This document shows positions 1 through 62,392 of a DNA stretch of 62,392 nucleotides, piece after piece. This DNA comes from an uncultured Pelagibacteraceae bacterium (GTDB lineage Bacteria; Pseudomonadota; Alphaproteobacteria; Pelagibacterales; Pelagibacteraceae): the NCBI GenBank assembly GCA_902557215.1, contig CACDZM010000007.1, positions 1 to 62,392 on the forward strand, in the 5' to 3' direction. Numbering within the stretch: the stretch's first letter is position 1; every line of letters starts with the position of its first letter. The notes below the pieces were generated by a model. That model saw only the letters and a program-made list of their open reading frames with translations. It was not told where the DNA came from and did no database searches. Made by a program: the position numbers and the translations under genes.

Positions 1-401
1 AATAAAAAATAAATTATTTTTGAAAAACCTGTAATTTCGTGATGTAATTCTAAAATGATTTTTTTTTTAAAAATACATGCTAAAAGAGAAAAAATTATAC
101 TACGTGAAAGAAACAATGCATCATCATCGAGTTTTTTAGATAGAATTTTAATTGAAAATATAATCCTAAGTATAAAATTGAGTAAAATAAAATTTTCGAA
201 AATTGAAATAATTTTGAATTTATAATTTATATTATAAATCTTATTTATTAGATTTATATTTTTTTTATTAATTACAAATAAATTAATGTCATATTTTAGC
301 CTGGAAAAAGCTTCACACATTTTCATAACATGAATTGAGTATGCAGATTTACTTGGCAGATTTAGTTCTGCTACATAATAAATTTTTTTTTTCTCTTGCA
401 T
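1..401 (-). CDS. GT4-type glycosyltransferase, N-terminal part (cut by window edge)
   Basis: This reading frame starts at an ATG (position 401, minus strand) and stays open to base 1, so about 133 N-terminal residues are visible. The start reads MQEKKKIYYVAELNLPSKSA followed by YSIHVMKMCEAF, the typical opening of retaining GT-B glycosyltransferases of family 4: a first beta strand, then a Ser/Ala-rich loop and a helix that contacts the acceptor. The LELHHEITGF stretch near residue 120 fits the second strand-loop of the same fold. The catalytic C-terminal domain lies outside the window, so donor and acceptor are unknown. It is divergent from the GT2 gene at 466 and belongs to the surface-polysaccharide block. 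Confidence 0.7.
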   Translation of the reverse strand, partial: MQEKKKIYYVAELNLPSKSAYSIHVMKMCEAFSRLKYDINLFVINKKNINLINKIYNINYKFKIISIFENFILLNFILRIIFSIKILSKKLDDDALFLSRSIIFSLLACIFKKKIILELHHEITGFSKIIYFL

Positions 402-465
402 ATGTAATTAAGAGCTGATTAGTTTTACATGTTTTTCAAAATAAAAAAAGATTAATGTACATTTA

Positions 466-1227
466 ATGGAGCCAAAAAAAATAAATAAGGGTTTGGTATC
501 AATTATAATACCTTATTATAAAAAAAGAGAATATATTTTAAAAACAATAAACTCAATTTTAGATCAATCGTACAATCATTTTGAAATAATTTTAATTTAT
601 GACGATGAAAATTTATCTGATTTATATTATTTAGAGAAATCGTTTAAGTTAGAAAAAAAAATTAAAATTATTAAAAATTCTCAAAATATTGGATCTGGAT
701 TTTCCAGAAATAGGGGAATGGATTACGCAAAAGGTGAATTTATAGCATTTATAGACGCTGATGATATTTGGAAAAAATCTAAGTTGGAAGTCCAAATTAA
801 TTTTATGGTCAACAATAAACTTAAATTTAGTCATACATCGTATGAAATTATTGACAAAAATGGTAAAGTTTTAGGAAAAAGATATTCCAGAAATTTTAAT
901 AAAGTAGATGATTTAGTTAAGTCTTGTGACATCGGATTATCAACAGTAATTTTGAAAAAAGAAATAATTGATGATCAAACAAAGTTTCCAAATTTAAAAA
1001 CAAAAGAGGACTTTGTTTTGTGGCTTAAAATTCTTCAAAAAAAAATTTTAATAAGTTCTTTAGATGAAACGCTAAGTTCGTGGAGAAAACTTGACAATTC
1101 ACTATCTAGTTCAATTACTCAAAAATTAAAAGATGCTTTTAAAGTTTATTATCATCATATGAGATTTAGTTTTGTAAAATCAATTTACTACGTTATATGC
1201 TTAAGTTTTAATTTTTTAAAAAAATAA
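466..1227 (+). CDS. GT2 family glycosyltransferase
   Basis: A 253-residue GT-A fold glycosyltransferase. The N-terminus VSIIIPYYKKREYILKTINS (residues 11-30) and the DADD metal/nucleotide-sugar motif at about 97-100, preceded by SRNRGMDYAKGEFIAF, are hallmarks of family 2 inverting transferases. A short hydrophobic tail near residues 235-250 could place it at the inner membrane. Such enzymes add single sugars to lipid-linked O-antigen or capsule intermediates; the sugar cannot be told from sequence. It starts 64 bases from the divergent GT4 gene and ends one base before the WecA-like gene, so the two are probably co-transcribed. Confidence 0.85.
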   Translation: MEPKKINKGLVSIIIPYYKKREYILKTINSILDQSYNHFEIILIYDDENLSDLYYLEKSFKLEKKIKIIKNSQNIGSGFSRNRGMDYAKGEFIAFIDADDIWKKSKLEVQINFMVNNKLKFSHTSYEIIDKNGKVLGKRYSRNFNKVDDLVKSCDIGLSTVILKKEIIDDQTKFPNLKTKEDFVLWLKILQKKILISSLDETLSSWRKLDNSLSSSITQKLKDAFKVYYHHMRFSFVKSIYYVICLSFNFLKK

Positions 1228-1228
1228 T

Positions 1229-2263
1229 ATGAATTATTTAATTTTTTTAATTATTCCATTATTTATTTTTTTTTCAAATTATTTTATTATCAAAAATAAA
1301 TACTTCTCTAATTTTTCAGGAGATTCCCATCAAAAGTACTTAGGTACAAAAAATACACCATTAATTGGTGGAATTTTTTTGATATTATTTTTATCAATTA
1401 TTTTTATCGAAAAAGATTTGAAGTTTTATACTTTTTTGGCTCTTATTTTTTTATTAGGACTATTTTCTGATTTAAAAATTTTATCTGTTCCTTCAAGAAG
1501 ATTATTCTATCAATTTATACTAGTTATATTATTCGTCTCTTTTTCGAGTCTTAATACAATCTCAACTAGGATCATTTTTATTGATAACGCTTTACAAAAT
1601 TATTATCTAGGTATTTTTTTTAGTACTTTTTGTCTAATTATATTAATTAATGGCACTAATTTTATGGATGGACTTAATGGCTTAGTTCTAACATATTATT
1701 TAATAGTCACAGCCTTACTTTTTAAATTAGATCTACTAATTGGCTTAAATTTTACAGATTTAGATAGTGCTTACTTGTGCTACTTGTTGTTTGTAATGAT
1801 TATTTTTAATTTCTCAAATAAATTTTATTTAGGTGATTCTGGAGCATATTTATTAGGGCTATTGATTGGTTACATGTTGATAAAATTACATAATTATAAT
1901 CCAAATATTTCACCATATTTTATTGTATTGTTATTGTGGTATCCATGTTTTGAAAATTTGTTTTCAATCATAAGAAAATTTAAAGTAGGAAGGTCGCCAG
2001 TCTCCCCGGATAGTAATCATTTTCATCAACTATTATTTTATTTTTTAAAAAAAGAAACCAAATTTAGTAATTTAGCTTGTAATAATTATTCAAGCATAAT
2101 TATTAACTTTTATAATTTTGTAATTTTATCATTTGGTAGCTTTAATATTTATAATACTCAACTGTTAGTTATATTAACATTAATCAATATGATAATTTAC
2201 ACAGTTATTTACTCAAGATTATTTAAGTTTAAATATAAAATTTTAATTTCTGATAAAAAATAG
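1229..2263 (+). CDS. WecA/MraY-like undecaprenyl-phosphate sugar-phosphate transferase
   Basis: A 344-residue polytopic membrane protein of the polyprenyl-phosphate N-acetylhexosamine-1-phosphate transferase family. Diagnostic motifs are NGTNFMDGLNGL (141-152), NKFYLGDSGAYLLG (197-210, with the catalytic-type Asp in LGDSGA) and HFHQL (264-268), the cytoplasmic His motif of WecA-type enzymes. About ten hydrophobic segments are visible. The family transfers a sugar-1-phosphate from a UDP-sugar to undecaprenyl phosphate, the first membrane step of O-antigen-like glycan synthesis. WecA is more likely than MraY because the context is polysaccharide rather than murein synthesis. Its 3' end overlaps the convergent GT2 gene by 21 bases. 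Confidence 0.85.
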   Translation: MNYLIFLIIPLFIFFSNYFIIKNKYFSNFSGDSHQKYLGTKNTPLIGGIFLILFLSIIFIEKDLKFYTFLALIFLLGLFSDLKILSVPSRRLFYQFILVILFVSFSSLNTISTRIIFIDNALQNYYLGIFFSTFCLIILINGTNFMDGLNGLVLTYYLIVTALLFKLDLLIGLNFTDLDSAYLCYLLFVMIIFNFSNKFYLGDSGAYLLGLLIGYMLIKLHNYNPNISPYFIVLLLWYPCFENLFSIIRKFKVGRSPVSPDSNHFHQLLFYFLKKETKFSNLACNNYSSIIINFYNFVILSFGSFNIYNTQLLVILTLINMIIYTVIYSRLFKFKYKILISDKK

Positions 2264-2914
2264 TTTTATCATGTGAGTTAATATTAAAAAACCATCTTTA
2301 AAAACATTAACTTTTTTTTTCCCACCAATTCTTGATCTTTCATAGGCTTTAGATGTTATTAATTTATGGCCTTTTCTTTTGGCTTTAATTGGCAGTTCAA
2401 CACAAAATTTAAAATCTTTTGAAGTTAATTCTAACTCCTTAGCCTTTGAGGTTTTGCCTATTATGTAGGTATATAAAATATCGGAAATATTTAATCCAAA
2501 AAATAATACTCCAATTTTGGTAAAAATGAAGTTACCAACTAACGTAATTATCGTATCATCGTCACTACCACAATTTTTTTCATATCTAGTTCCAAAAACA
2601 AAATCAGCTTCATTTGTTCTAATTTGCTCTAACATTTTGGATAGTTCGCTAGGATCAAACGATCCATCCGCATTAAACAGACAAAATAACTCAGTTTCAA
2701 CAGAGTTTATGCCAGTAATTAGTGCATCACCATAACCCCTACCTTTTTGATAAAGAATTCTACAATTATAATCTTTTATTGAATTGATAGTTTCTATATC
2801 TTCTTTTTCTAAAACAATTATAATCTTAAGATTATAGCTCTTTAACTCATCAAGTACTTTAGGAAGAGATTCTTTTTCGTTTTTGGCAGGAATTACTAAT
2901 GTAAGATTATTCAT
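2243..2914 (-). CDS. GT2 glycosyltransferase, dolichyl-phosphate-mannose-synthase-like
   Basis: A 223-residue GT2 enzyme on the opposite strand to its neighbours. It begins NNLTLVIPAKNEKESLPKVL and carries the NADG acidic motif at about 81-84 inside ETELFCLFNADGSFDPSE, typical of DPM1-like synthases that make polyprenyl-phosphate-linked sugars for GT-C enzymes. VFGTRYEKN after the motif also fits this subgroup. It converges on and overlaps the WecA-like gene by 21 bases. The membrane protein encoded at 3049 could be a downstream GT-C type user, but that pairing is inferred from proximity only. Confidence 0.8.
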   Translation of the reverse strand: MNNLTLVIPAKNEKESLPKVLDELKSYNLKIIIVLEKEDIETINSIKDYNCRILYQKGRGYGDALITGINSVETELFCLFNADGSFDPSELSKMLEQIRTNEADFVFGTRYEKNCGSDDDTIITLVGNFIFTKIGVLFFGLNISDILYTYIIGKTSKAKELELTSKDFKFCVELPIKAKRKGHKLITSKAYERSRIGGKKKVNVFKDGFLILTHMIKLFFIRN

Positions 2915-3048
2915 AAATATTTAAATTTATTATTATTTTTATATTAATAATTGTAATTTTGATTTATCTTAAAATATTAACTTTTTAAATAAAATTCTTT
3001 GAAATACTTTCTTTGGTATTAATGTAAAAAAAATATAGAGGTATATTA

Positions 3049-4710
3049 ATGAATATATTAATTTATTTATCATTTTATGCATTAATAATCATATCGGTAA
3101 TTGGATATTCCTTGATGTTCCAAAAAGTTTTAAGAAATACGGTTGATATTGAATTCGAGTATAATTTATTAGGTGGTTTACTCTTTTTAATTTTCTTATC
3201 TTTTTTAACACATTTTTTTTTAAAACATGGTTACACACATAATATAATTATTTTTATAATAGGAATAGCTCTATCTATATTTTATTTCATTAACGAAAAA
3301 AGAATATCCAAAATATATTTTGGGTATATTTTTTTAATTTTTGGAATATTAGCGGTCGGATTTCTAACATCAAAAACTCATGATGATTTCCCTTATTATC
3401 ATTTTCCTTATACTTACTATTTAACTCAAGAAAATTTGATAATAGGCATGGGGCATTTAGTACATGCTTTTAGAACACCATCTTCGATTTTTTATCTAAA
3501 TTCATTGTTTTATTTACCAATTATAGACTATTTTTTATTTAACATGGGAGCAATTTTAATATTAGGTTTTTCAAACTTAATCTTAATTTTTAAATTAAAA
3601 AATGACTACAAAAGTAAAAATTATGATTTTATATTTTTTTTAACCCTCCTATCTTTTTTATTCATAAATGTATTTTTTTATAGACTAGCTGAACATGGAA
3701 CTGATAGGTCTGCACAAATACTAATTCTTATTTTATTTATTGAAGTTTTTAATTTATATCGAAAAACAGTAGATATAAGAAAAATTTTTTCTAAAATTTT
3801 TATTTTAATGGGATTCATTATATCACTTAAAGCATTCTATGTTTTATATTTAATTATTCTTTTACCGATTTTTATGTATCTTAAGAATAAAAGAATTATT
3901 TTAGGTTTTTTTAAAAATTTTTACTTTTATATTTTCTGTTTTATTGGTTTTTTTTTAATACTTGTTAATATTTTTAATTCTGGCTGCATTTTATATCCTG
4001 TAAGTTTTTCGTGTTTTTCTAATCTTGAATGGTCAATGTTTAATGAAGCTAAAACTTCTAATGATTGGTTTGAACAATGGGCAAAGGCTGGTGCAGGTCC
4101 AACGCATAGAGTAGACAATCCAGATATTTATATTCAAGGTTTTAATTGGGTTCCGAATTGGATTGAGATGTATTTCTTTAATAAGGTAAGTGACTTTATA
4201 CTTGGATTATTCCTTTTATTAATCATAGTCTTTTTCACATTTTACTCAAAACACAAAATTACTATTAAAATGAATAAACAAAGTTATCTAATATATTTCA
4301 CAGCCATTATTTTATTTTGTGAGTGGTTTTATAATCATCCAAGTCTTAGATACGGTGGCTTTAGTTTGGTTGCTATAATTATGTTTGTGCCATTTTCAAT
4401 ATATATTTCAAGATTTTCCTTAATAAAGATTTTTAAAGAAAAAATTATTTTTTTGATTATATTATCTTTAGTCATATTTATTGGAAGAAATGTAAATAGA
4501 ATTAATGATGAAGTACAAAAATATAATTATAATTTGTTTTCATATCCATATTATTATTTAGATGATGTTCATTTCAGAATAGACAAACTCGTAGATAAGA
4601 TATTGCACAATTACAAAAAATGTAAAAATGAAAATAAAATAAATTGTGAACGTTTTAATGGAATATTGGTTACTAAAAAAAATTTTTTCTATATCATAAA
4701 TAAAAATTAA
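3049..4710 (+). CDS. Large polytopic membrane protein of the polysaccharide block
   Basis: A 553-residue protein with roughly eleven to thirteen hydrophobic segments and a soluble loop around residues 320-375, rich in Trp and aromatic residues. A short polar C-terminal tail contains Cys residues. The pattern resembles GT-C glycosyltransferases or O-antigen polymerase/ligase-like proteins, but I see no diagnostic motif. Polar charged residues (KTHDDFPYYHFPYTYYL, about residues 109-125) in the first periplasmic loop are where GT-C enzymes place their catalytic acid pair, so a GT-C role is a reasonable guess. It is preceded by a 134-base divergent promoter region. Confidence 0.6.
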   Translation: MNILIYLSFYALIIISVIGYSLMFQKVLRNTVDIEFEYNLLGGLLFLIFLSFLTHFFLKHGYTHNIIIFIIGIALSIFYFINEKRISKIYFGYIFLIFGILAVGFLTSKTHDDFPYYHFPYTYYLTQENLIIGMGHLVHAFRTPSSIFYLNSLFYLPIIDYFLFNMGAILILGFSNLILIFKLKNDYKSKNYDFIFFLTLLSFLFINVFFYRLAEHGTDRSAQILILILFIEVFNLYRKTVDIRKIFSKIFILMGFIISLKAFYVLYLIILLPIFMYLKNKRIILGFFKNFYFYIFCFIGFFLILVNIFNSGCILYPVSFSCFSNLEWSMFNEAKTSNDWFEQWAKAGAGPTHRVDNPDIYIQGFNWVPNWIEMYFFNKVSDFILGLFLLLIIVFFTFYSKHKITIKMNKQSYLIYFTAIILFCEWFYNHPSLRYGGFSLVAIIMFVPFSIYISRFSLIKIFKEKIIFLIILSLVIFIGRNVNRINDEVQKYNYNLFSYPYYYLDDVHFRIDKLVDKILHNYKKCKNENKINCERFNGILVTKKNFFYIINKN

Positions 4711-4754
4711 TGATTATATTTATAATAAAAGCTGTTAAAAAATAATTTTTAAAT

Positions 4755-5801
4755 ATGAAAAAAAAAATAGCCTTAATTTTTGGTATCACTGGTCAAGACG
4801 GATCTTACTTAGCAGAAATATTATTAAAAAAAAATTATATAGTACATGGTGTAAAGAGAAGATCTTCTAGCATTAATACTTTTAGAGTGGACCACATATA
4901 TCAAGATCCTCACGATAAAAATTATAGATTCAGACTTCATTATGGCGATGTTACTGATACTTTGTCTGTTTCAAATATTATAAAAAAAATTAAACCTCAT
5001 GAAATATATAATTTAGCTGCTCAGTCTCACGTTGCAGTTTCATTTGAGGTTCCGGAATACACTGCTAACGCTGATGCCCTGGGTGCTCTTAGAATATTAG
5101 AGGCAATAAAATTTCATAAACTTGAAAAAAAAACAAAATTTTATCAGGCAGGTACTTCTGAAATGTATGGTAAAGTTCAAAGTTCACCTCAAAATGAAAA
5201 AACCCCTTTTTATCCTTTGAGTCCTTATGGAGTAGCGAAATTATATGCACACTGGATTACCAAGAATTATAGAGAGGCTTATAAAATCTTTGCTTGTAAT
5301 GGAATTTTATTTAATCATGAAAGTCCGAGAAGGGGTGAAACTTTTGTTACTAAAAAAATTATCTCTGCACTTTGTAAGATTAAGGAGGGAAAACAAAAAA
5401 AATTATTTTTAGGTAATTTAAATTCTAAAAGAGATTGGGGTCATGCAAAAGATTATTGTTTTGCTATGTGGAAAATACTTCAACAAAAAAAACCTGATGA
5501 TTACGTTATAGCTACAGGTAAACAATACTCAATTAAACAATTCATAAATTTAACAGCAAAAAAATTAAAAATGAAAATAATTTGGAAAGGGAAAGGAATG
5601 AAAGAGAAAGGATATAATAATCTAGGCTTTCCTATTATTGAATGTGATAAAAATTATATTAGACCATTAGACGTAGACACACTTCTAGGTGATGCTAGAA
5701 AAGCCAGAAAAATACTTAAATGGAAACCTAAAAACAACATTGATTTGTTGATCCATGAAATGATTCAATCAGAATATAAAATGTTAAATGCAATTAAATA
5801 A
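4755..5801 (+). CDS. gmd: GDP-mannose 4,6-dehydratase
   Basis: A 348-residue extended short-chain dehydrogenase. The Rossmann motif is G10-x-x-G13-x-x-G16 in [32 protein letters not shown] is the NADP/GDP-mannose region specific to Gmd; the catalytic set is T134/S135/E136 in GTSEMYG and Y158-x-x-x-K162 in SPYGVAK. Length matches the family. It converts GDP-D-mannose to GDP-4-keto-6-deoxymannose in the cytoplasm, the precursor of GDP-L-fucose. The stop overlaps the start of fcl by 14 bases, so the two pathway enzymes are translationally coupled. Confidence 0.95.
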
Positions 5802-6735
5802 AAAAAGTAAAATTTTCATTGCAGGACATAATGGTATGGTGGGTTCATCAGTATTACGACACTTTAAAAAAAAGGGGTATAAAAAATTGTTTTTTAAAAA
5901 TAAAAAATCTTTAAATTTGATTGATCAAAAAAAAACACTTTTTTATATAAAAAAAATAAAGCCAGATTTCGTTATTATTGCAGCTGCAAGAGTTGGTGGA
6001 ATTTTTGCTAACGATGATCAAAAAGCAAAATTTATCTACGAAAATATTATGATACAAACAAATTTAATTCATTCCTCTTTTTTAGCGGGTGTAAAAAAAC
6101 TTATTTTTTTAGGCTCAAGTTGTATCTATCCAAAGTATGCTAAGCAACCTATTAAAGAAGATTATTTGATGACAGGAAAACTTGAAGAGACTAATGAACC
6201 TTATTCTATTGCAAAGTTAGCAGGTTACAAGATGTGTGAGGCTTATAATAAACAGTACAAAACGAATTATTTATGTTTAATGCCCACAAATCTTTATGGA
6301 CCAAATGATAATTATAATCTAAATACCTCACATTTTTTTCCAGCTATAATTGTTAAAGCTCATACTGCACTAAAAACAAAAAATAAGGTGATAAAAATTT
6401 GGGGAGATGGTACCCCAAAAAGAGAGTTGATGTATGTAGATGATCTCGCAGATGCTTGTGAATTTTTTTTAAAAAAAAAAACAAAACATTCATTAATAAA
6501 TATTGGAAGTGGTGAGGAAAAGACAATTTTAGCATATTACAAATTTGTAATAAAAAAACTAAATGCTAATTTAAAAATAAAATTCGAAAAGAAAAAACCA
6601 AACGGAACACCAAGAAAAAAATTAGATCTTAGTTTAGCAAAAAAATATGGCTGGAAATCTAGGTATAAATTAGATGAAGGATTCAATTTGACCTATAAAA
6701 ACTATTTAAAGAAATTGATTTTAAATAAAAAATGA
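5788..6735 (+). CDS. fcl: GDP-L-fucose synthase
   Basis: A 315-residue NADPH-dependent epimerase/reductase. Evidence is the G13-x-x-G16-x-x-G19 motif (AGHNGMVGS), [12 protein letters not shown], the catalytic GSSCIYP segment (about 109-115), [12 protein letters not shown] with Y139-x-x-x-K143, and the family-typical [10 protein letters not shown]. It converts the Gmd product to GDP-L-fucose. It overlaps gmd upstream by 14 bases and the next epimerase downstream by 4 bases, so the three form one unit that would feed a fucose-like sugar to the glycosyltransferases of the block. Confidence 0.94.
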
Positions 6736-7613
6736 AAAAAATTGTTATTGTTACAGGTGGGAGTGGCTTTGTAGGAAGTAATTTAATTAAATATTTAATT
6801 AAAAAGACTGCATATAATATTATCAGCATAGATGATTATTCATCTGGGACTAAAAAAAATCACATTAATTCAAAAAAAGTTAAATATATAAAAGGTAATA
6901 CAAAAAATATTGATTCTATTTTAAAAAAGTATGTTAAAAAAATTCACTCCATTTTTCATTTTGGAGAATTTTCTAGAATTTATCAAAGTTTTTTAAAAAT
7001 GAATAAATGTATACAATCTAATTCAATAGGTACTAATGCAGTTTTTGACTTTTGTTTAAAAAATAAGATAAAATTAATTTATTCGGCAACATCTGCATCC
7101 TTAGGAAATAAAGGAAAAGATAAAAATCTTTCCCCGTATGCCTTTACGAAAGCTAAAAATTTGGAACTTTTAGAAAATTTAAGAAATTGGTTTAATTTTA
7201 GATATGAGGTTATATTTTTTTATAACGTTTATGGACCTGGCCAGATTAAAAAAGGTGACATGTCAACTGTAATTGGAATTTTTGAAGACTGTTATTTGAA
7301 GGATCTGCCTTTGCCAGTAGTAAAGCCTGGAACTCAATCTAGAAGATTTACTCATATTTCAGATACTGTAAAGGTTTGTTATAAAGCTTGGAAGAATGAT
7401 AAATCAAGATTTTATAGTATTTCAAATAAAAAAAGTTATTCTATTCTTGAAGTTGCAAAGATGTTTGGAAAAAAAATTAAGTTTTTACCCGCAAGAAAGG
7501 GTGAGAGATATGCATCTGCTTTAACAACTTTGGGTTTATCAAAGAAGATTTATCGAATTTATGGTAAAATAGACTTAAAAAATTACGTCAAAGAGTTTGT
7601 TAAAAATAGGTAG
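6732..7613 (+). CDS. NAD-dependent nucleotide-sugar epimerase/dehydratase
   Basis: A 293-residue extended short-chain dehydrogenase with GGSGFVG (G9-x-x-G12-x-x-G15), an acidic IDDYSSG loop that favours NAD, SATSASLG and the Y136-x-x-x-K140 catalytic pair in SPYAFTK. FFYNVYGPGQ and RRFTHISD are the substrate-binding landmarks of UDP-sugar 4-epimerase-like proteins. The usual Ser/Thr-x-Tyr-Gly segment after the SAT motif is degenerate, so the substrate is uncertain; GalE/WbpP-like 4-epimerase is the best guess. It is the last gene of the polysaccharide block before the 5S rRNA promoter. Confidence 0.82.
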   Translation: MKKIVIVTGGSGFVGSNLIKYLIKKTAYNIISIDDYSSGTKKNHINSKKVKYIKGNTKNIDSILKKYVKKIHSIFHFGEFSRIYQSFLKMNKCIQSNSIGTNAVFDFCLKNKIKLIYSATSASLGNKGKDKNLSPYAFTKAKNLELLENLRNWFNFRYEVIFFYNVYGPGQIKKGDMSTVIGIFEDCYLKDLPLPVVKPGTQSRRFTHISDTVKVCYKAWKNDKSRFYSISNKKSYSILEVAKMFGKKIKFLPARKGERYASALTTLGLSKKIYRIYGKIDLKNYVKEFVKNR

Positions 7614-7642
7614 AAATAACGTATTTTTACAGTAAATCTCTG

Positions 7643-7670
7643 TTTACATTGAATAAATTATCTATATAAA
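7643..7670 (+). promoter_or_regulatory. Sigma70-type promoter of the solitary 5S rRNA gene
   Basis: TTTACA (7643-7648) and TATAAA (7665-7670) are separated by 16 bases, and the predicted mature 5S 5' end lies seven bases after the -10 box, at the distance expected for a transcription start. It lies in the 63-base gap after the epimerase gene. This suggests that the 5S gene is transcribed on its own rather than from an upstream rRNA operon promoter. Confidence 0.55.
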
Positions 7671-7676
7671 GCATTC

Positions 7677-7790
7677 GCCGGTAATTATTGCGAAAGTGTT
7701 ACACCCGATCCCATTCCGAACTCGGAAGTTAAGCCTTTCAGCGCCGATGGTACTTTGTCTTAAGATACGGGAGAGTAGGTCATTGCCGGC
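7677..7790 (+). rRNA. rrf: 5S ribosomal RNA
   Basis: The segment has the canonical 5S layout: terminal helix I formed by GCCGGTAAT at the 5' end and ATTGCCGGC at the 3' end, the loop B/helix III core CCCATTCCGAACTCGGAAGT, and the helix IV-loop E portion ending GGGAGAGTAGGTC. Length is about 114 bases, normal for an alphaproteobacterium. There is no 23S or 16S sequence upstream in the window; a surface-polysaccharide block sits there instead. The rpmJ start codon follows ten bases after the 3' end. An open frame that runs across the RNA is fortuitous. Ends are accurate to one or two bases. Confidence 0.95.
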
Positions 7791-7800
7791 ATCTTGTTTT

Positions 7801-55945: not shown

Positions 55946-56632
55946 TTATACTTTTTGATAAACCACATCATAGTAACTCCCTACCTTAGGATGATCAGCA
56001 AATTTAGTTTTAAAAATTTCTTTAAATCCATGGTTCTTTAAAAATTTTGACAAGTCATCAATTTTACAACCATTTACGTACGACTCAAAATCTGCAGCCT
56101 CTGTTATTACATATTTGAAGTTTTCCAAAATTTCTACGCTACCTCTAAGAACTAAAAGTTCAGATCCTTGAGTATCAATAAGTAATGCTTGATATTTTTT
56201 TAAATCAATTTTTTTTTGTTTTACTAAACTTGTGAGCGTCAAACTTTTTAATGAAATTTTTTTTGTATAACTTACCTCAGGCCAAACTTCACTATGAAGT
56301 CCTAAATTAAACATCGAAGATGATGCTCCATTATTATTTGCAATTTTAAATTCAACATTTTGATTATCAGTATTAGATAGTAAACATTTAAATGCTTTTT
56401 GATTTGGATAATTTGATATATTTTTTGATAATTGATCATAAATTTCAGGTATTGGTTCAACCCAAATCACTGAAAGAGAATATTTTTCATATTTCTTTCT
56501 CTCCTGTCCTTCATTTGCACCAACATGAATAATACCTGATATATTTTCTAAATAAAAATTTGGATTCTTTTTTAAAAAGATAAGAAACATTAATTTATTT
56601 AAATATTTTTTTATTATTTTTTTAATTTTCAT
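55946..56632 (-). CDS. FkbM family methyltransferase
   Basis: A 228-residue SAM-dependent methyltransferase. GIIHVGANEGQERKKYEKY (about 34-52) is the FkbM SAM-binding loop, VIWVEPIPEIYDQL gives the acidic ribose-binding residue, and ALLIDTQGSELLVLRGS is the FkbM D-x-Q/E-G-x-E motif. The family O-methylates sugars and other small molecules, often in polysaccharide clusters. It starts about ten bases behind the coding piece of ssrA on the same strand, so it may be read through from the tmRNA promoter. Confidence 0.87.
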   Translation of the reverse strand: MKIKKIIKKYLNKLMFLIFLKKNPNFYLENISGIIHVGANEGQERKKYEKYSLSVIWVEPIPEIYDQLSKNISNYPNQKAFKCLLSNTDNQNVEFKIANNNGASSSMFNLGLHSEVWPEVSYTKKISLKSLTLTSLVKQKKIDLKKYQALLIDTQGSELLVLRGSVEILENFKYVITEAADFESYVNGCKIDDLSKFLKNHGFKEIFKTKFADHPKVGSYYDVVYQKV

Positions 56633-56953: not shown

Positions 56954-57901
56954 ATGAAATTAACTAAGGAACAACAACAAGAAATTAAAGACCAGCAGTC
57001 TCAGGTAAATAAAACTAAAAGAGTTACTGTTGATGAACTTGAAAATATTCTTTATGAAGCTATTCCTATTTTGGATCATGGTTTTATAAGGGTGATTGAT
57101 TATATGGGGGACGATACTTCCATCGTTCAAGCGGCTAGAGTTTCATACGGAAAGGGTACAAAAAAAGTTTCAACTGATGCAGGGCTTATAAAGTACTTGA
57201 TGAGACATTGGCATAGTACTCCATTTGAAATGTGTGAAATAAAATATCACGTCAAACTTCCAATTTTTATAGCTCGTCAATGGATTAGACATAGGACAGC
57301 AAATGTAAATGAATATTCTGCAAGATATTCTATTTTAGATAAAGAGTTTTATTTACCAGCAATAGAAAATTTAGCTGCACAATCTCAAAGTAACAGACAA
57401 GGAAGAGGGGATGTTCTTTCAGGAGATCAGGCAAAAAAAGTTTTAGATTTATTAAAAAAGGATGCAGAACAAACTTATGATAATTATGAAACTATGCTTA
57501 ATGAAAGATATGATGGCTCTATAATTGATGAAAAACAAGTTGGTTTAGCAAGAGAGCTAGCAAGGATGAATTTAACACTTAATACTTATACCCAGTGGTA
57601 TTGGAAAACCGATCTTTTAAACTTAATGAATTTTTTAAGATTAAGAGCTGACCACCATGCACAATACGAGATCAGAGCTTATGCCGATGCAATGTTGGAT
57701 ACTGTTAAAAGATGGGTACCAATTACTTACGAAGCATTCTTAGATTATAGAGTGGGAGGCACCGAAGTATCCTCAAATGGTAAAGAAATAATTAAAAAAT
57801 TAATTAGTGGTGAAAAAATTAATCCTGAAAAATCAGGATTATCCAAACGTGAATGGAATGAGTTAATGACTTCTTTTGATCTAAAAGATAAGTTGATATA
57901 G
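56954..57901 (+). CDS. thyX: Flavin-dependent thymidylate synthase
   Basis: A 315-residue ThyX. The family motif RHRxxxxxxxS is exact, from R112-H113-R114 to S122 in [26 protein letters not shown] and [20 protein letters not shown]-type sequence (here [18 protein letters not shown]) complete the FAD and dUMP sites. It makes dTMP with NADPH and methylene-THF without releasing dihydrofolate. An N-terminal 25 residues rich in Gln/Lys precede the core. It is divergent from ssrA. Confidence 0.95.
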
Positions 57902-57925
57902 TCTCCAAAAAAAAACAAAGTATTG

Positions 57926-60046
57926 ATGAAACTTATAAAAAAAATATTTTTCATAATTATTTTCTTTTTTTTGAACGTAAATGCTTTTGCATTTACAGAT
58001 CCTAATAATGTTGATGATTTTGATATCAGTGATGAAACAACTTCGACTACAGTAAAATTTAGTCGAGATGGTAAGACAATGTTTATTTTAGGTGTTAACA
58101 CTGATACTATAAGACAATATTCACTTAGTACTGCATTTGATTTATCATCTCCACCTGTAGCAGTAAAGACTTTCGACATAGGATCAATTCAAGATGCACC
58201 TCAAGATATAGAATTTAATTCAGATGGAACAGTTTTATTTGTTATTAATAGAGAAATTGGAAATAGAGGAATACATCAATGGGACTTAAATACACCTTAT
58301 GACATAGGTGGTCTTACTGATACAGACGGAAAACGTACTTCATTAAATGGAGATTTAAGGGGATTTAAATTTTCTAATGATGGAAAAAAATTATTCACAA
58401 TAACTCAAACTTCATCGACTGTAGGAACAGTTACCGAATATACTTTATCGGTTGCTTATGATCTTGACACATTAAGTCAAACAAATACTTTAACATCAAC
58501 TTTTTCTGGTGAAGGAAGACGTCAAGGTATAAATTTTAGTTCAGATGGTTACAAATTATTCATCTCAAATTCTGCAACATCTGCAATAAGCCCTCTGAAA
58601 GAAAGAAATTATATAAGGGAATTTTCTTTAATCTCACCATTTAATATTTCAAATCCTACTAATAATGGAGACTTTCAACCTAGTTACGCAGATGATTTTA
58701 GAATTACTGGTTTAACATTTAATAATGATGGATCGAAAATGTTTCATACTGATTTTACGAATAATAATGTGTACGAATATACTTTATCTTGTGGATTTGG
58801 TGTTAAAACTTGTACAGATCCGACTAATGACAAAGATGATGTTGCTTCAATAGAATCTCAGTCAGAGGCAACAAAAAAATTGATACAACATACAACTTAT
58901 CCAGTACTCAATCGAATGGAATGGTTAAGGCGAAATAGTGGGAGAATAAATTTAACAAATCAAAATATAAAGTTTCAATTTAATAATGAAATTTTAAATT
59001 CCTTAACAGATGCATTAATTCCTCTTTATTTCTCAAATGGTAATTCAAATGATGTAAATGATCAAAGTTCAAACTGGTCTTTTTGGAGCGAGGGCACTAT
59101 AAGTATTGGGAAAGTTGGTGACGACTCAGCTTCCTCTGCAAAAGATATCAGCTCATCAGCACTTACACTCGGTGCAGATAAAAAAGGTGAGGATAATATC
59201 ATGAGAGGTATTGCATTAAGATTTGGCGCTGATGATATAGATGTTGGTACCTTAGGAAGTGCACTTGATATGAGCTCTTTTGCTTTAACTTTTTATTCAA
59301 GTAAACCAAAGGGAGACCAAAGATTTACAGACAGCTTATTAGGTATGAGTTTTATAAATTCTAATTTAGTTAATAATAGTGGTTCTGCTTCAACAGATGG
59401 TGAAAGATACGGTGAACAATTATATGGTTCTTTAAGTTTAAGAGATACATTTTCAAAAAACCGATTAAATTTTACACCTAAATTGAAAATTAATTATGGA
59501 ATAACACATCTAGGAGCTTACAAAGAAACTGGAGCTGCAGGATTGAACTTAGAATATAAGGATCAATATATTGGAAACTTTACATCATCTATAGGAACAA
59601 GTTTAGATAATACTTACGATTTTGAAGTAGGATCCTTTATTCCATATTTTGATTTTGAGTATTATGCAGATATGAGTCCAGCTTCAAAACAAAAATTCTC
59701 TTATGTGTCTAATGGTGAGAGTTTTACTTTAAAAAATATTGAAAATTCTACTCATAATTTTATGGGTGGTATTGGATTTGATTTTATTTCAGAAAATGGG
59801 CTTACGCTGATGAGTAAATACACCAGAGATCAAAGCCAAAATAGTAAAAATGATAATTTTATTATTGCTTTGGATTATAGAGGTTCTCAAAATTCTTCTT
59901 ATGCTATGTCTGTACAAGATACTTCAACTAAGCTTTCTCATAACCGAGAAATTAACGGTTTTAACATTAATTTAGATAGTCATTATGACTTTTTTCAAGA
60001 TGATCCAGAATACGGAGTTTATTTAAAGGTCTCTAATGAATACTAG
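57926..60046 (+). CDS. Secreted beta-propeller protein with autotransporter-like C-terminal barrel
   Basis: A 706-residue protein starting at ATG 57926 (a TTG one codon earlier is less likely). A signal peptide (KLIKKIFFIIIFFFLNVNAFA) is followed by about five propeller-like repeats spaced 45-55 residues, each with an F-S/N-x-D-G-x-x-x-F core: VKFSRDGKTMFIL, IEFNSDGTVLFVI, FKFSNDGKKLFTI, INFSSDGYKLFIS, LTFNNDGSKMFHT. Two Cys flank the end of that domain (near 290). From about residue 430 the sequence has alternating amphipathic strands and Tyr-rich turns and ends in an aromatic residue, as autotransporter barrels do. Function unknown; a cell-surface role is inferred. Confidence 0.8.
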   Translation: MKLIKKIFFIIIFFFLNVNAFAFTDPNNVDDFDISDETTSTTVKFSRDGKTMFILGVNTDTIRQYSLSTAFDLSSPPVAVKTFDIGSIQDAPQDIEFNSDGTVLFVINREIGNRGIHQWDLNTPYDIGGLTDTDGKRTSLNGDLRGFKFSNDGKKLFTITQTSSTVGTVTEYTLSVAYDLDTLSQTNTLTSTFSGEGRRQGINFSSDGYKLFISNSATSAISPLKERNYIREFSLISPFNISNPTNNGDFQPSYADDFRITGLTFNNDGSKMFHTDFTNNNVYEYTLSCGFGVKTCTDPTNDKDDVASIESQSEATKKLIQHTTYPVLNRMEWLRRNSGRINLTNQNIKFQFNNEILNSLTDALIPLYFSNGNSNDVNDQSSNWSFWSEGTISIGKVGDDSASSAKDISSSALTLGADKKGEDNIMRGIALRFGADDIDVGTLGSALDMSSFALTFYSSKPKGDQRFTDSLLGMSFINSNLVNNSGSASTDGERYGEQLYGSLSLRDTFSKNRLNFTPKLKINYGITHLGAYKETGAAGLNLEYKDQYIGNFTSSIGTSLDNTYDFEVGSFIPYFDFEYYADMSPASKQKFSYVSNGESFTLKNIENSTHNFMGGIGFDFISENGLTLMSKYTRDQSQNSKNDNFIIALDYRGSQNSSYAMSVQDTSTKLSHNREINGFNINLDSHYDFFQDDPEYGVYLKVSNEY

Positions 60047-60735
60047 TTTTTTTTTAAATTGTAATAAATAATAAAATAAATTGCTGCTAATCCATCTTTC
60101 CACGTAATCTTTTTACCTTCCTCATATTTTCTACCAAAATATTTTACTCCAACCTCATAAATTTTAAGATTTTTTTTAGATATTTTAGCCGTTACCTCTG
60201 GTTCAAAACCAAATCCATCTTCTCTCAAATTAATATTTTTAATAACGTCTTTTTTAAAAACTTTGTAACAGCATTCCATGTCGGTCAGATTTAAATTGGT
60301 AAACATGTTACTTAAAAGAGTTAAAAATTTATTTCCAATTGTATGCCAAAAATATAATACTCTCGTCTCTTGCCCACCTACAAATCTTGATCCATAAACA
60401 ACATCAGCATGATTATTTAAAATAGGCTCTATCAAATTATTGTAATCGGATGGGCTATATTCTAAATCTGCATCTTGGATTAATATGATGTCTCCAGTTG
60501 CTTCTTTAAGCCCTTGTTTCACGGAATACCCCTTACCTTTGTTTTGATCGTTTAAAATTAATTTGATTTCATTATCTTTTTTGTAATTTTCTAGAATTTT
60601 CCTAGAATTATCAGTTGAATAATCATCGACAACGATAATTTCTTTTTCAATAGTTTTCTCATCTTTCACTCTGTCTAAAATAACCGCAACAGTATCTTGT
60701 TCATTAAAACAGGGTATAATAATACTAAGTTTCAT
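60043..60735 (-). CDS. GT2 glycosyltransferase, dolichyl-phosphate-mannose-synthase-like
   Basis: A 230-residue GT2 enzyme: SIIIPCFNEQDTVAVIL, IIVVDDYSTDNS, NKGKGYSVKQGLKEATGD, the DAD metal motif at 88-90 (LIQDADLEYSP), YGSRFVGG and MECCYKVFK. These match DPM1/undecaprenyl-phosphate glycosyltransferases that load a sugar on a polyprenyl carrier. It overlaps the 3' end of the surface protein gene by four bases and lies downstream of the GT-C-like gene on the same strand, which could use its product. Confidence 0.88.
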   Translation of the reverse strand: MKLSIIIPCFNEQDTVAVILDRVKDEKTIEKEIIVVDDYSTDNSRKILENYKKDNEIKLILNDQNKGKGYSVKQGLKEATGDIILIQDADLEYSPSDYNNLIEPILNNHADVVYGSRFVGGQETRVLYFWHTIGNKFLTLLSNMFTNLNLTDMECCYKVFKKDVIKNINLREDGFGFEPEVTAKISKKNLKIYEVGVKYFGRKYEEGKKITWKDGLAAIYFIIYYNLKKN

Positions 60736-60806
60736 AAATTGATTTTATTAATCTTAGGACTTTATTTCATTAATTATCTAAACAGCAAGATATTTTTAAA
60801 AAGGTA

Positions 60807-61880
60807 TTATCTTAGTTTGTAAATATTAAGACGACCAATTTCTTTTAATAAAATAATTTTTTCTTTTTTTAATGGAGGATTAGATATGTTGTAAGTTATA
60901 ATATAATCATTATCTTCAATTGATCTGTTTTGAATTCCTTCTTGATTATTTTTTAAGTTATAGGATCTCATTAAAATATAATCGTACTCTCTACCTCTTA
61001 CATAAACTCCAGGATAATACTTTGAATATTTTTCTCCAAACCTGTTGACCCAATTGTATCTTTTATCATTAAAGCCATATCCAACTTTGATAATTTCATC
61101 ATTAGCGTTTTTTCTCCAATCCTTTACAATATATTCTATAGCCTGTTGTTTTTGAATTAAGGGAACGTCTGCATCTGTTAAAATTTTCCCCTTATAATTT
61201 TTATGATCATTATAAATAAAATATCCACCACACAAATTAACAGCAATAAAAGTCACTAATAAAGATAAGGTGCAAAATTTTAGATATTTATTAAAACTTT
61301 GTGAAAACTGAATTATCCAAGGAGTTAAAAACCAAATAATAAAAAATAATGGTAATAAGTGAACTTGCATATCTAATCGTGCACCTTTAATCCAATTGGG
61401 TGAACCCAGGATTGCACCAGATATTATTACTAAAAATATGAACAAATAAGATGTGAATATAAAAAATAAAATTTTCTTATCTTTGACTGTGAAAAATCTT
61501 TTAAAGAATAGATAAAAAATTAGTAATAGATAAGATATTATTGATTGAACAATTAGAATGATAGAATTAATTTTAAGAAGTAAAATTGAGAATTCAGATA
61601 ATGGACCATCATAAATATTTTTTAACTCTTGCAAATGTAGCTTGTTATAATGAAAGATACTCCAAAAAGGTGAGGAAATTGTATCTAAACCATTGTGCTT
61701 AAAAGTTCCACTAATATCTCCTGCCGCATAAAAAATACTCCAATAAGGATAACCAATTATCGTACTAAAAAATTCTTTTAAATTTATTGATTGGTCTAAA
61801 TAACCAAACAACTTAATATCATTGATAATAAGATTTTTTAAAAAAGGGTACCATATAAAATAGGAAAATAAAATTATCAT
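60807..61880 (-). pseudogene. GT-C-type membrane glycosyltransferase, apparently 5'-truncated
   Basis: A 357-residue open frame with about six hydrophobic segments and a soluble C-terminal domain (about 235-357). It begins within a hydrophobic/loop pattern (MIILFSYFIWYPFLKNLIIN) and lacks the first periplasmic loop with the catalytic Asp/Glu pair seen in full GT-C enzymes, such as the DEASTMW motif of the neighbouring gene at 61967. Its start coincides with an mrp-like fragment on the other strand. I read it as the C-terminal two thirds of a longer gene cut at 61880; a genuine short protein is the alternative. Confidence 0.5.
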
Positions 61881-61966
61881 TACCTATCGTCGAAAAGGAT
61901 CCTCAACATGAAATATCAAAAATATATTTAGATTTAGCAAAAAAATTAAAATCAATTTTTTTCTAA
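61880..61966 (+). pseudogene. mrp: 3' remnant of an Mrp/ApbC-type Fe-S cluster carrier gene
   Basis: A 29-codon frame ending in TAA at 61964-61966, one base before the next ATG. It reads LPIVEKDP, then QHEISKIYLDLAKKLKSIFF, which aligns with the C-terminal tail of Mrp/NBP35 ATPases (pattern G-x-P-V-V-x-x-x-P-x-x-x-x-A-x-I-Y-x-D-I-A). No Walker motifs or upstream part exist: in frame, a stop codon lies at 61856-61858. The fragment meets the start of the truncated GT-C gene at exactly this point. Confidence 0.55.
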
Positions 61967-62392
61967 ATGAGAGAATTATTATTTAAAAATAAGAATTTTT
62001 TAATTTTTTTTTTAATTCTAATTTTCTCACTATACGATAGAACTTTATGGTCAAATATTTCACAGTGGCAAGTTGATGAAGCATCCACTATGTGGATTAG
62101 TTTGAAATATCCCTTTTTTGAAATTCCAGTTGGATTAATAAGTTCTGAAAATATTCCAAATCCTAATGGAATGATCTACTTTTCAAAACTATTAAATAAA
62201 TTTCCAAGTTTATGGCTTAGTAGTTATTTTTTAAGTTTATTACAATTAATTTTAATATGTGTTCTTGGATATATATTATCAAAAAATAATCAGAAACTAT
62301 TTCTTTTTATTATCATACCTTTAATACTTAGTTTGTGTTTGAGATCAATTTCTGCTCATCTTTCTAATCAATGGGTGCTAACATTAGTAAAT
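61967..62392 (+). CDS. GT-C family glycosyltransferase, N-terminal part (cut by window edge)
   Basis: An open frame from ATG 61967 to the window end, 142 codons. One N-terminal membrane helix (KNKNFLIFFLILIFSLYDRT) is followed by SQWQVDEASTMWISLKYPF, the D-E pair expected in the first periplasmic loop of GT39/GT83-like enzymes, then PNPNGMIYFSKLLNKFPS and further helices. Such proteins use polyprenyl-phosphate sugars to modify glycans or proteins. It begins immediately after the mrp-like fragment. Confidence 0.75.
   Translation, partial: MRELLFKNKNFLIFFLILIFSLYDRTLWSNISQWQVDEASTMWISLKYPFFEIPVGLISSENIPNPNGMIYFSKLLNKFPSLWLSSYFLSLLQLILICVLGYILSKNNQKLFLFIIIPLILSLCLRSISAHLSNQWVLTLVN

Follow-up and report, generated by a model that had tools for sequence, protein, structure and literature searches.

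An apparent recombination scar beside mrp at the end of a Pelagibacteraceae contig is most likely an inverted assembly join

The last 513 bases (61880–62392) of a contig assigned to the Pelagibacteraceae are very probably an inverted chimeric join and not a scar in the chromosome. This contig, C7, makes up the whole window, that is, the full stretch of 62,392 nucleotides analysed here, and it belongs to a draft genome of 1.12 Mb in 24 contigs that is 88% complete. A first-pass annotation had described a recombination scar at this place, in which one deletion or island exchange joined two divergent genes, and had named a chimeric join as its alternative. It is the alternative that gains support, since the tail of the contig is inverted when compared with the intact locus of relatives. 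What looks like a scar was most likely produced as an artefact at the level of assembly, within an ordinary variable locus, and the mrp and GT-C-like genes of the source organism are most likely intact. This reading rids the annotation of a false "recombination scar" together with two false truncated genes, and it establishes a link between contigs C7 and C9. The features around the joint are as follows.

61880..61883, no strand: the joint, TTAC, common to the mrp side and the GT-C-like side (base alignment to the relatives L082 and L083)
61880..61966, plus strand: 3' end of mrp, codons 247–274 and stop, out of place and in inverted orientation when compared with the remaining C7 sequence (translation; Mrp of relatives)
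61967..62392, plus strand: GT-C-like membrane protein gene, codons 1–142, running off the contig end (99% to residues 1–142 of the 571-aa frame of genome G067; equal to L082 5359–5784)
60807..61883, minus strand: the same GT-C-like gene, codons 214–571 and stop (97% to residues 215–571 in G067/L082; equal to L082 5998–7074)

The mrp fragment and the two parts of one gene

On the plus strand, positions 61880–61963 encode 28 residues followed by a stop codon (61964–61966), and the next frame opens on the directly adjacent base, 61967. These residues match the C-terminus of Mrp, within the mrp frame, in 16 of 16 same-genus relatives with a clear mrp; a clear mrp is absent in the remaining eight of the 24 same-genus relatives, which are drafts 58–82% complete. 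The sister family gives weak matches to the 28 residues in 8 of 16 genomes (E 0.11–0.77), two of which fall in a 221-aa frame distinct from the main mrp match. The codons at 61880 are therefore the end of Mrp, as had been proposed, and the idea that they might be unlike Mrp can be dropped. All 28 are identical to those of L082 and differ from L083 by three synonymous changes. A search for an intact mrp in the source genome returned two ends only, codons 247–274 on C7 and codons 1–138 on C9. The latter run off the very end of C9, where they adjoin an hflK-like gene (named by reading of the sequence), and C9 is collinear with L082 up to base 4949. Site-specific integration that regenerates the 3' end of a gene was considered and rejected, as the only other mrp piece consists of codons 1–138 at a contig end and an inversion explains the tail.

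On the minus strand, a frame of 357 aa (60807–61880) opens exactly at the joint. Its ATG at 61880 corresponds to methionine 215, inside the 571-aa protein of relatives, so the gene does lack its N-terminal part at this point, in agreement with the first reading. This frame and the frame after the mrp stop both match a single frame per genome, which is 571 aa long in G067 (97% for the long half, 99% for the short half) and 578 aa long in G143 (52% and 65%). Both halves are matched in 3 of 399 genus genomes, namely the source, G067 and G143; a fourth genome gives a weak match to the longer half only, and neither half was found in the first 40 relatives searched. The frame that follows mrp and the one on the minus strand belong to one gene, so an intact gene looks here like two broken ones beside an mrp stub. 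Homologues carry the gene at full length and not with the same short start.

The assembled pieces are readable without stops. Relative to L082, residues 1–142 show five synonymous codon changes and one non-synonymous change, and residues 215–571 show 25 and 9. In the latter segment the comparison with L083 gives 32 synonymous and 37 non-synonymous changes, and because the intact relatives L082 and L083 differ likewise from each other there (44 and 39), this pattern reflects normal evolution of the gene and is no sign of decay.

The intact locus and the position of the joint

Scanning reference genomes with the 357-aa protein gave 38 pattern matches, among which two relatives were confirmed, AG-915-J15 (L082) and AG-895-K10 (L083). 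The locus of G067 is found letter for letter within L082 and comes from the same genome, and thus it provides no third witness. In L082 and L083 the order is mrp (274 aa, 4534–5358), the 571-aa protein from 5359, a GT2 gene and the convergent thyX. The 571-aa gene lies directly downstream of mrp in the same orientation and opens on the base after the mrp stop, which bears out the earlier suggestion that the gene following the stop is the natural downstream neighbor of mrp.

Aligned to this locus, the tail 61880–62392 equals L082 5272–5784 in forward orientation with 98.8% identity (96.5% for L083), and 59990–61883 equals L082 7890–5998 on the opposite strand with 95.8% identity (94.8% for L083, from 60026). 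The tail is inverted relative to the remainder of C7, and the joined points are 726 bp apart. In the base alignment to both relatives, identity on the mrp side starts at 61880 and identity on the GT-C side stops at 61883, so that aligning the two halves with relatives, as had been advised, locates the breakpoint at 61880–61883 and places the joint 513 bases before the end of C7. The four bases TTAC fit both flanks, with L082 and L083 taken in place of the true sequence, which is unassembled; the chance of four shared bases at a random blunt joint is approximately 0.03. At the joint, two stretches of a single locus less than 10 kb apart meet in opposite orientation, with a deletion between them.

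This arrangement bears directly on the reading in which two unrelated divergent genes were brought together by a deletion or island exchange that left behind an mrp stub; we consider this reading extremely improbable. In its favor, the gap between mrp and thyX is truly variable, with cargo of 1.9–4.5 kb in 6 of 16 relatives. Against it, both "genes" belong to a single gene that has the orientation of mrp, they are collinear with the intact locus except for a tail inverted in place, and the unbroken 571-aa gene of L082 and L083 contradicts the exchange. What stands of the proposed scar is the joint itself, but its parts do not come from unrelated genes or places, being mrp and its immediate neighbor. 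A join to another strain or to a distant place in the genome was likewise rejected, as the tail is the sequence of the immediate neighbor.

Probing the source genome with 1601 bases of the intact locus returned three strong pieces (438–899 bits), and the other 51 matches reached at most 50 bits. In L082 coordinates the strong pieces are C9 up to 4949, the tail at 5272–5784, and C7 from 5998. By this whole-genome search, L082 4950–5271 and 5785–5997 (213 bp) are unassembled in the source genome, and both gap pieces are present in none of 43 contig-end stretches; the assembly thus lacks the true path through mrp codons 139–246 and GT-C codons 143–213. Because thyX is on C7 and the start of mrp is on C9, the two contigs end on either side of one locus, C7 being in reverse orientation.

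A real and recent chromosomal inversion of 727 bp, with its ends at mrp codon 247 and GT-C codon 214, truncating mrp at codon 246 and splitting the GT-C-like gene, would produce a C7 sequence identical to the one seen. It also agrees with the way C9 and C7 are ordered, and its reciprocal joint would sit in the unassembled gap. We nevertheless hold this inversion to be very improbable. It would break mrp, which is present in 16 of 16 relatives that are at least 90% complete; its breakpoint shares just four bases; it leaves unexplained that both contigs end within about 1.1 kb of one locus; and two relatives that are 95–99% identical here are uninverted. There is accordingly only a slight chance that a genuine short inversion between mrp and the slot's first cargo gene switched off the cargo membrane protein and broke mrp in this cell. 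If it were true, this ocean bacterium with its small genome would have lost an iron-sulfur carrier that is widely conserved, a surprising outcome.

Among 399 genomes of the genus, only the source genome has the 27-mer across the joint when up to three mismatches are allowed; this uniqueness is weak evidence because both gene halves are present in just 3 of 399. A pairwise comparison of the 43 contig-end stretches, which leave out the far ends of C20–C23, revealed no second fold-back joint, in a test that detects duplicated pieces only. At 95% identity and word size 20 it gave short matches only: 47 bases direct between C1 and C8, 21 inverted between C1 and C4, 23 inverted between C5 and C7, and a 22-base palindrome in C12. 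Further fold-back matches in C18 and C19 are overlaps between the fetched stretches themselves.

A candidate origin by amplification

The inverted chimeric join probably arose during whole-genome amplification. The true order is most likely mrp, the GT-C-like gene (571 codons), GT2, the autotransporter and thyX. The 3' end of a strand being copied within the GT-C-like gene was presumably displaced and primed anew at the common TTAC, 726 bp off on the other strand, and its extension ran through the last part of mrp into the first part of the GT-C-like gene. The assembler would then have taken the chimeric product as the end of C7, leaving the true path missing and C9 stopping inside mrp. That amplification, and not an assembly error of some other kind, gave rise to the join is our inference. 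The AG- names of the relatives suggest that the source genome was amplified, possibly as a single-amplified genome, although one of the two AG- relatives has a record titled MAG; these names presumably point to the GORG-Tropics single-cell workflow.

According to PMC1855051, more than 85% of amplification chimeras are inverted with an intervening deletion, 337 of 406 inversions are less than 10 kb apart, and priming at 2–21 matching bases is seen in more than 70%. PMC4595205 gives chimeric distances from 0 to more than 5,000 nt and overlaps mostly of 5–8 nt, with peaks at 6 bases of overlap and 250–300 nt of distance; the four bases and 726 bp of the present joint are inside these published ranges and off both peaks. 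In benchmarks, PMC11247762 reports 1.5 misassemblies per 100 kb for the GORG-Tropics single-cell workflow, and therefore one would be expected in such a genome. The same paper describes contamination-type chimerism as rare in GORG-Tropics genomes, which is a separate matter from misassembly.

The slot between mrp and thyX

In this genus, the gap between mrp and thyX forms a small slot for variable cargo. In the window it is bordered and filled by the following genes.

60043..60735, minus strand: GT2 glycosyltransferase gene, paired with the GT-C-like gene and downstream of it (PF00535, E 1.5e-37; same order in L082 and L083)
57923..60046, plus strand: autotransporter with a beta-propeller-like passenger, slot cargo (PF03797, E 1.8e-26; PF10282, E 3.5e-5)
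56954..57901, plus strand: thyX, conserved convergent neighbor of mrp (beside mrp in 16 of 16 fetched relatives)

All 16 fetched relatives (L047–L062) have mrp and then a convergent thyX. The 3' ends of the two genes overlap by 20 or 26 bases in 10 of them, with no cargo, and 1.9–4.5 kb of other genes lie between them in six. Judged by names read from translations, the cargo differs among these six and includes acyltransferase-, autotransporter-, carbamoyltransferase- and methyltransferase-like proteins. A clearly similar autotransporter frame was seen by eye in the same slot of G003 and G016, and the C-terminal parts of these frames appear more alike than the N-terminal parts; the autotransporter is missing between GT2 and thyX in L082 and L083. 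In L085 (G143), the GT-C-like relative (52–65%) sits on the downstream rather than the upstream side of a GT2 gene that resembles the one in the window. A literature search found no paper joining Pelagibacter, mrp and thyX. This side result, with surface-related genes among the cargo, is ordinary but useful.

Elsewhere in the window, an FkbM methyltransferase gene (PF05050) at 55946–56632 lies between tRNA-Leu and tmRNA and slightly overlaps the ARAGORN tmRNA call; this is possibly another small cargo site. Positions 1–7791 carry apparent sugar-nucleotide and glycosyltransferase genes, which end at the 5S rRNA (7677–7791), besides which the window gave no other rRNA match. We take this segment to be the edge of SAR11 hypervariable region 2.

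Comparison with known systems

The label GT-C is provisional. Like GT-C membrane glycosyltransferases, the protein is hydrophobic, carries an early Asp-Glu pair (D37 E38) and is encoded next to a GT2 gene, the meaning of this motif and of the GT-C/GT2 pairing being our assumption. Unlike them, it has no family profile match at cut-off: the 571-aa protein matches no Pfam family (E up to 1), no PDB sequence (E up to 1), and NCBIfam below threshold only. When the halves were scanned alone, the 357-aa piece gave no family match and the 142-aa piece gave two below the curated cut-off, and the predicted structure has a mean pLDDT of 35, too low for use of the fold. Going by gene order and the GT2 profiles, the GT-C-like protein and GT2 could plausibly form a pair that makes a lipid-linked sugar and transfers it to a surface glycan.

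With the Mrp/ApbC iron-sulfur carrier ATPases (PF10609, NF008669), the source genome shares the 28-residue C-terminus on C7 and codons 1–138 on C9, and it differs in that only these two ends of mrp are assembled. The intact Mrp of a relative matches PF10609 with an E of 6.1e-97 and lies below the NCBIfam equivalog cut-off (298 vs 348 bits).

The closest parallel for the joint is the inverted chimera of multiple displacement amplification, as described in PMC1855051. Whereas those chimeras are known from reads, the present one lies within a finished contig from a sample whose amplification we infer; the two have in common nearby segments in opposite orientation, a deletion between them, a few shared bases and a distance far below 10 kb.
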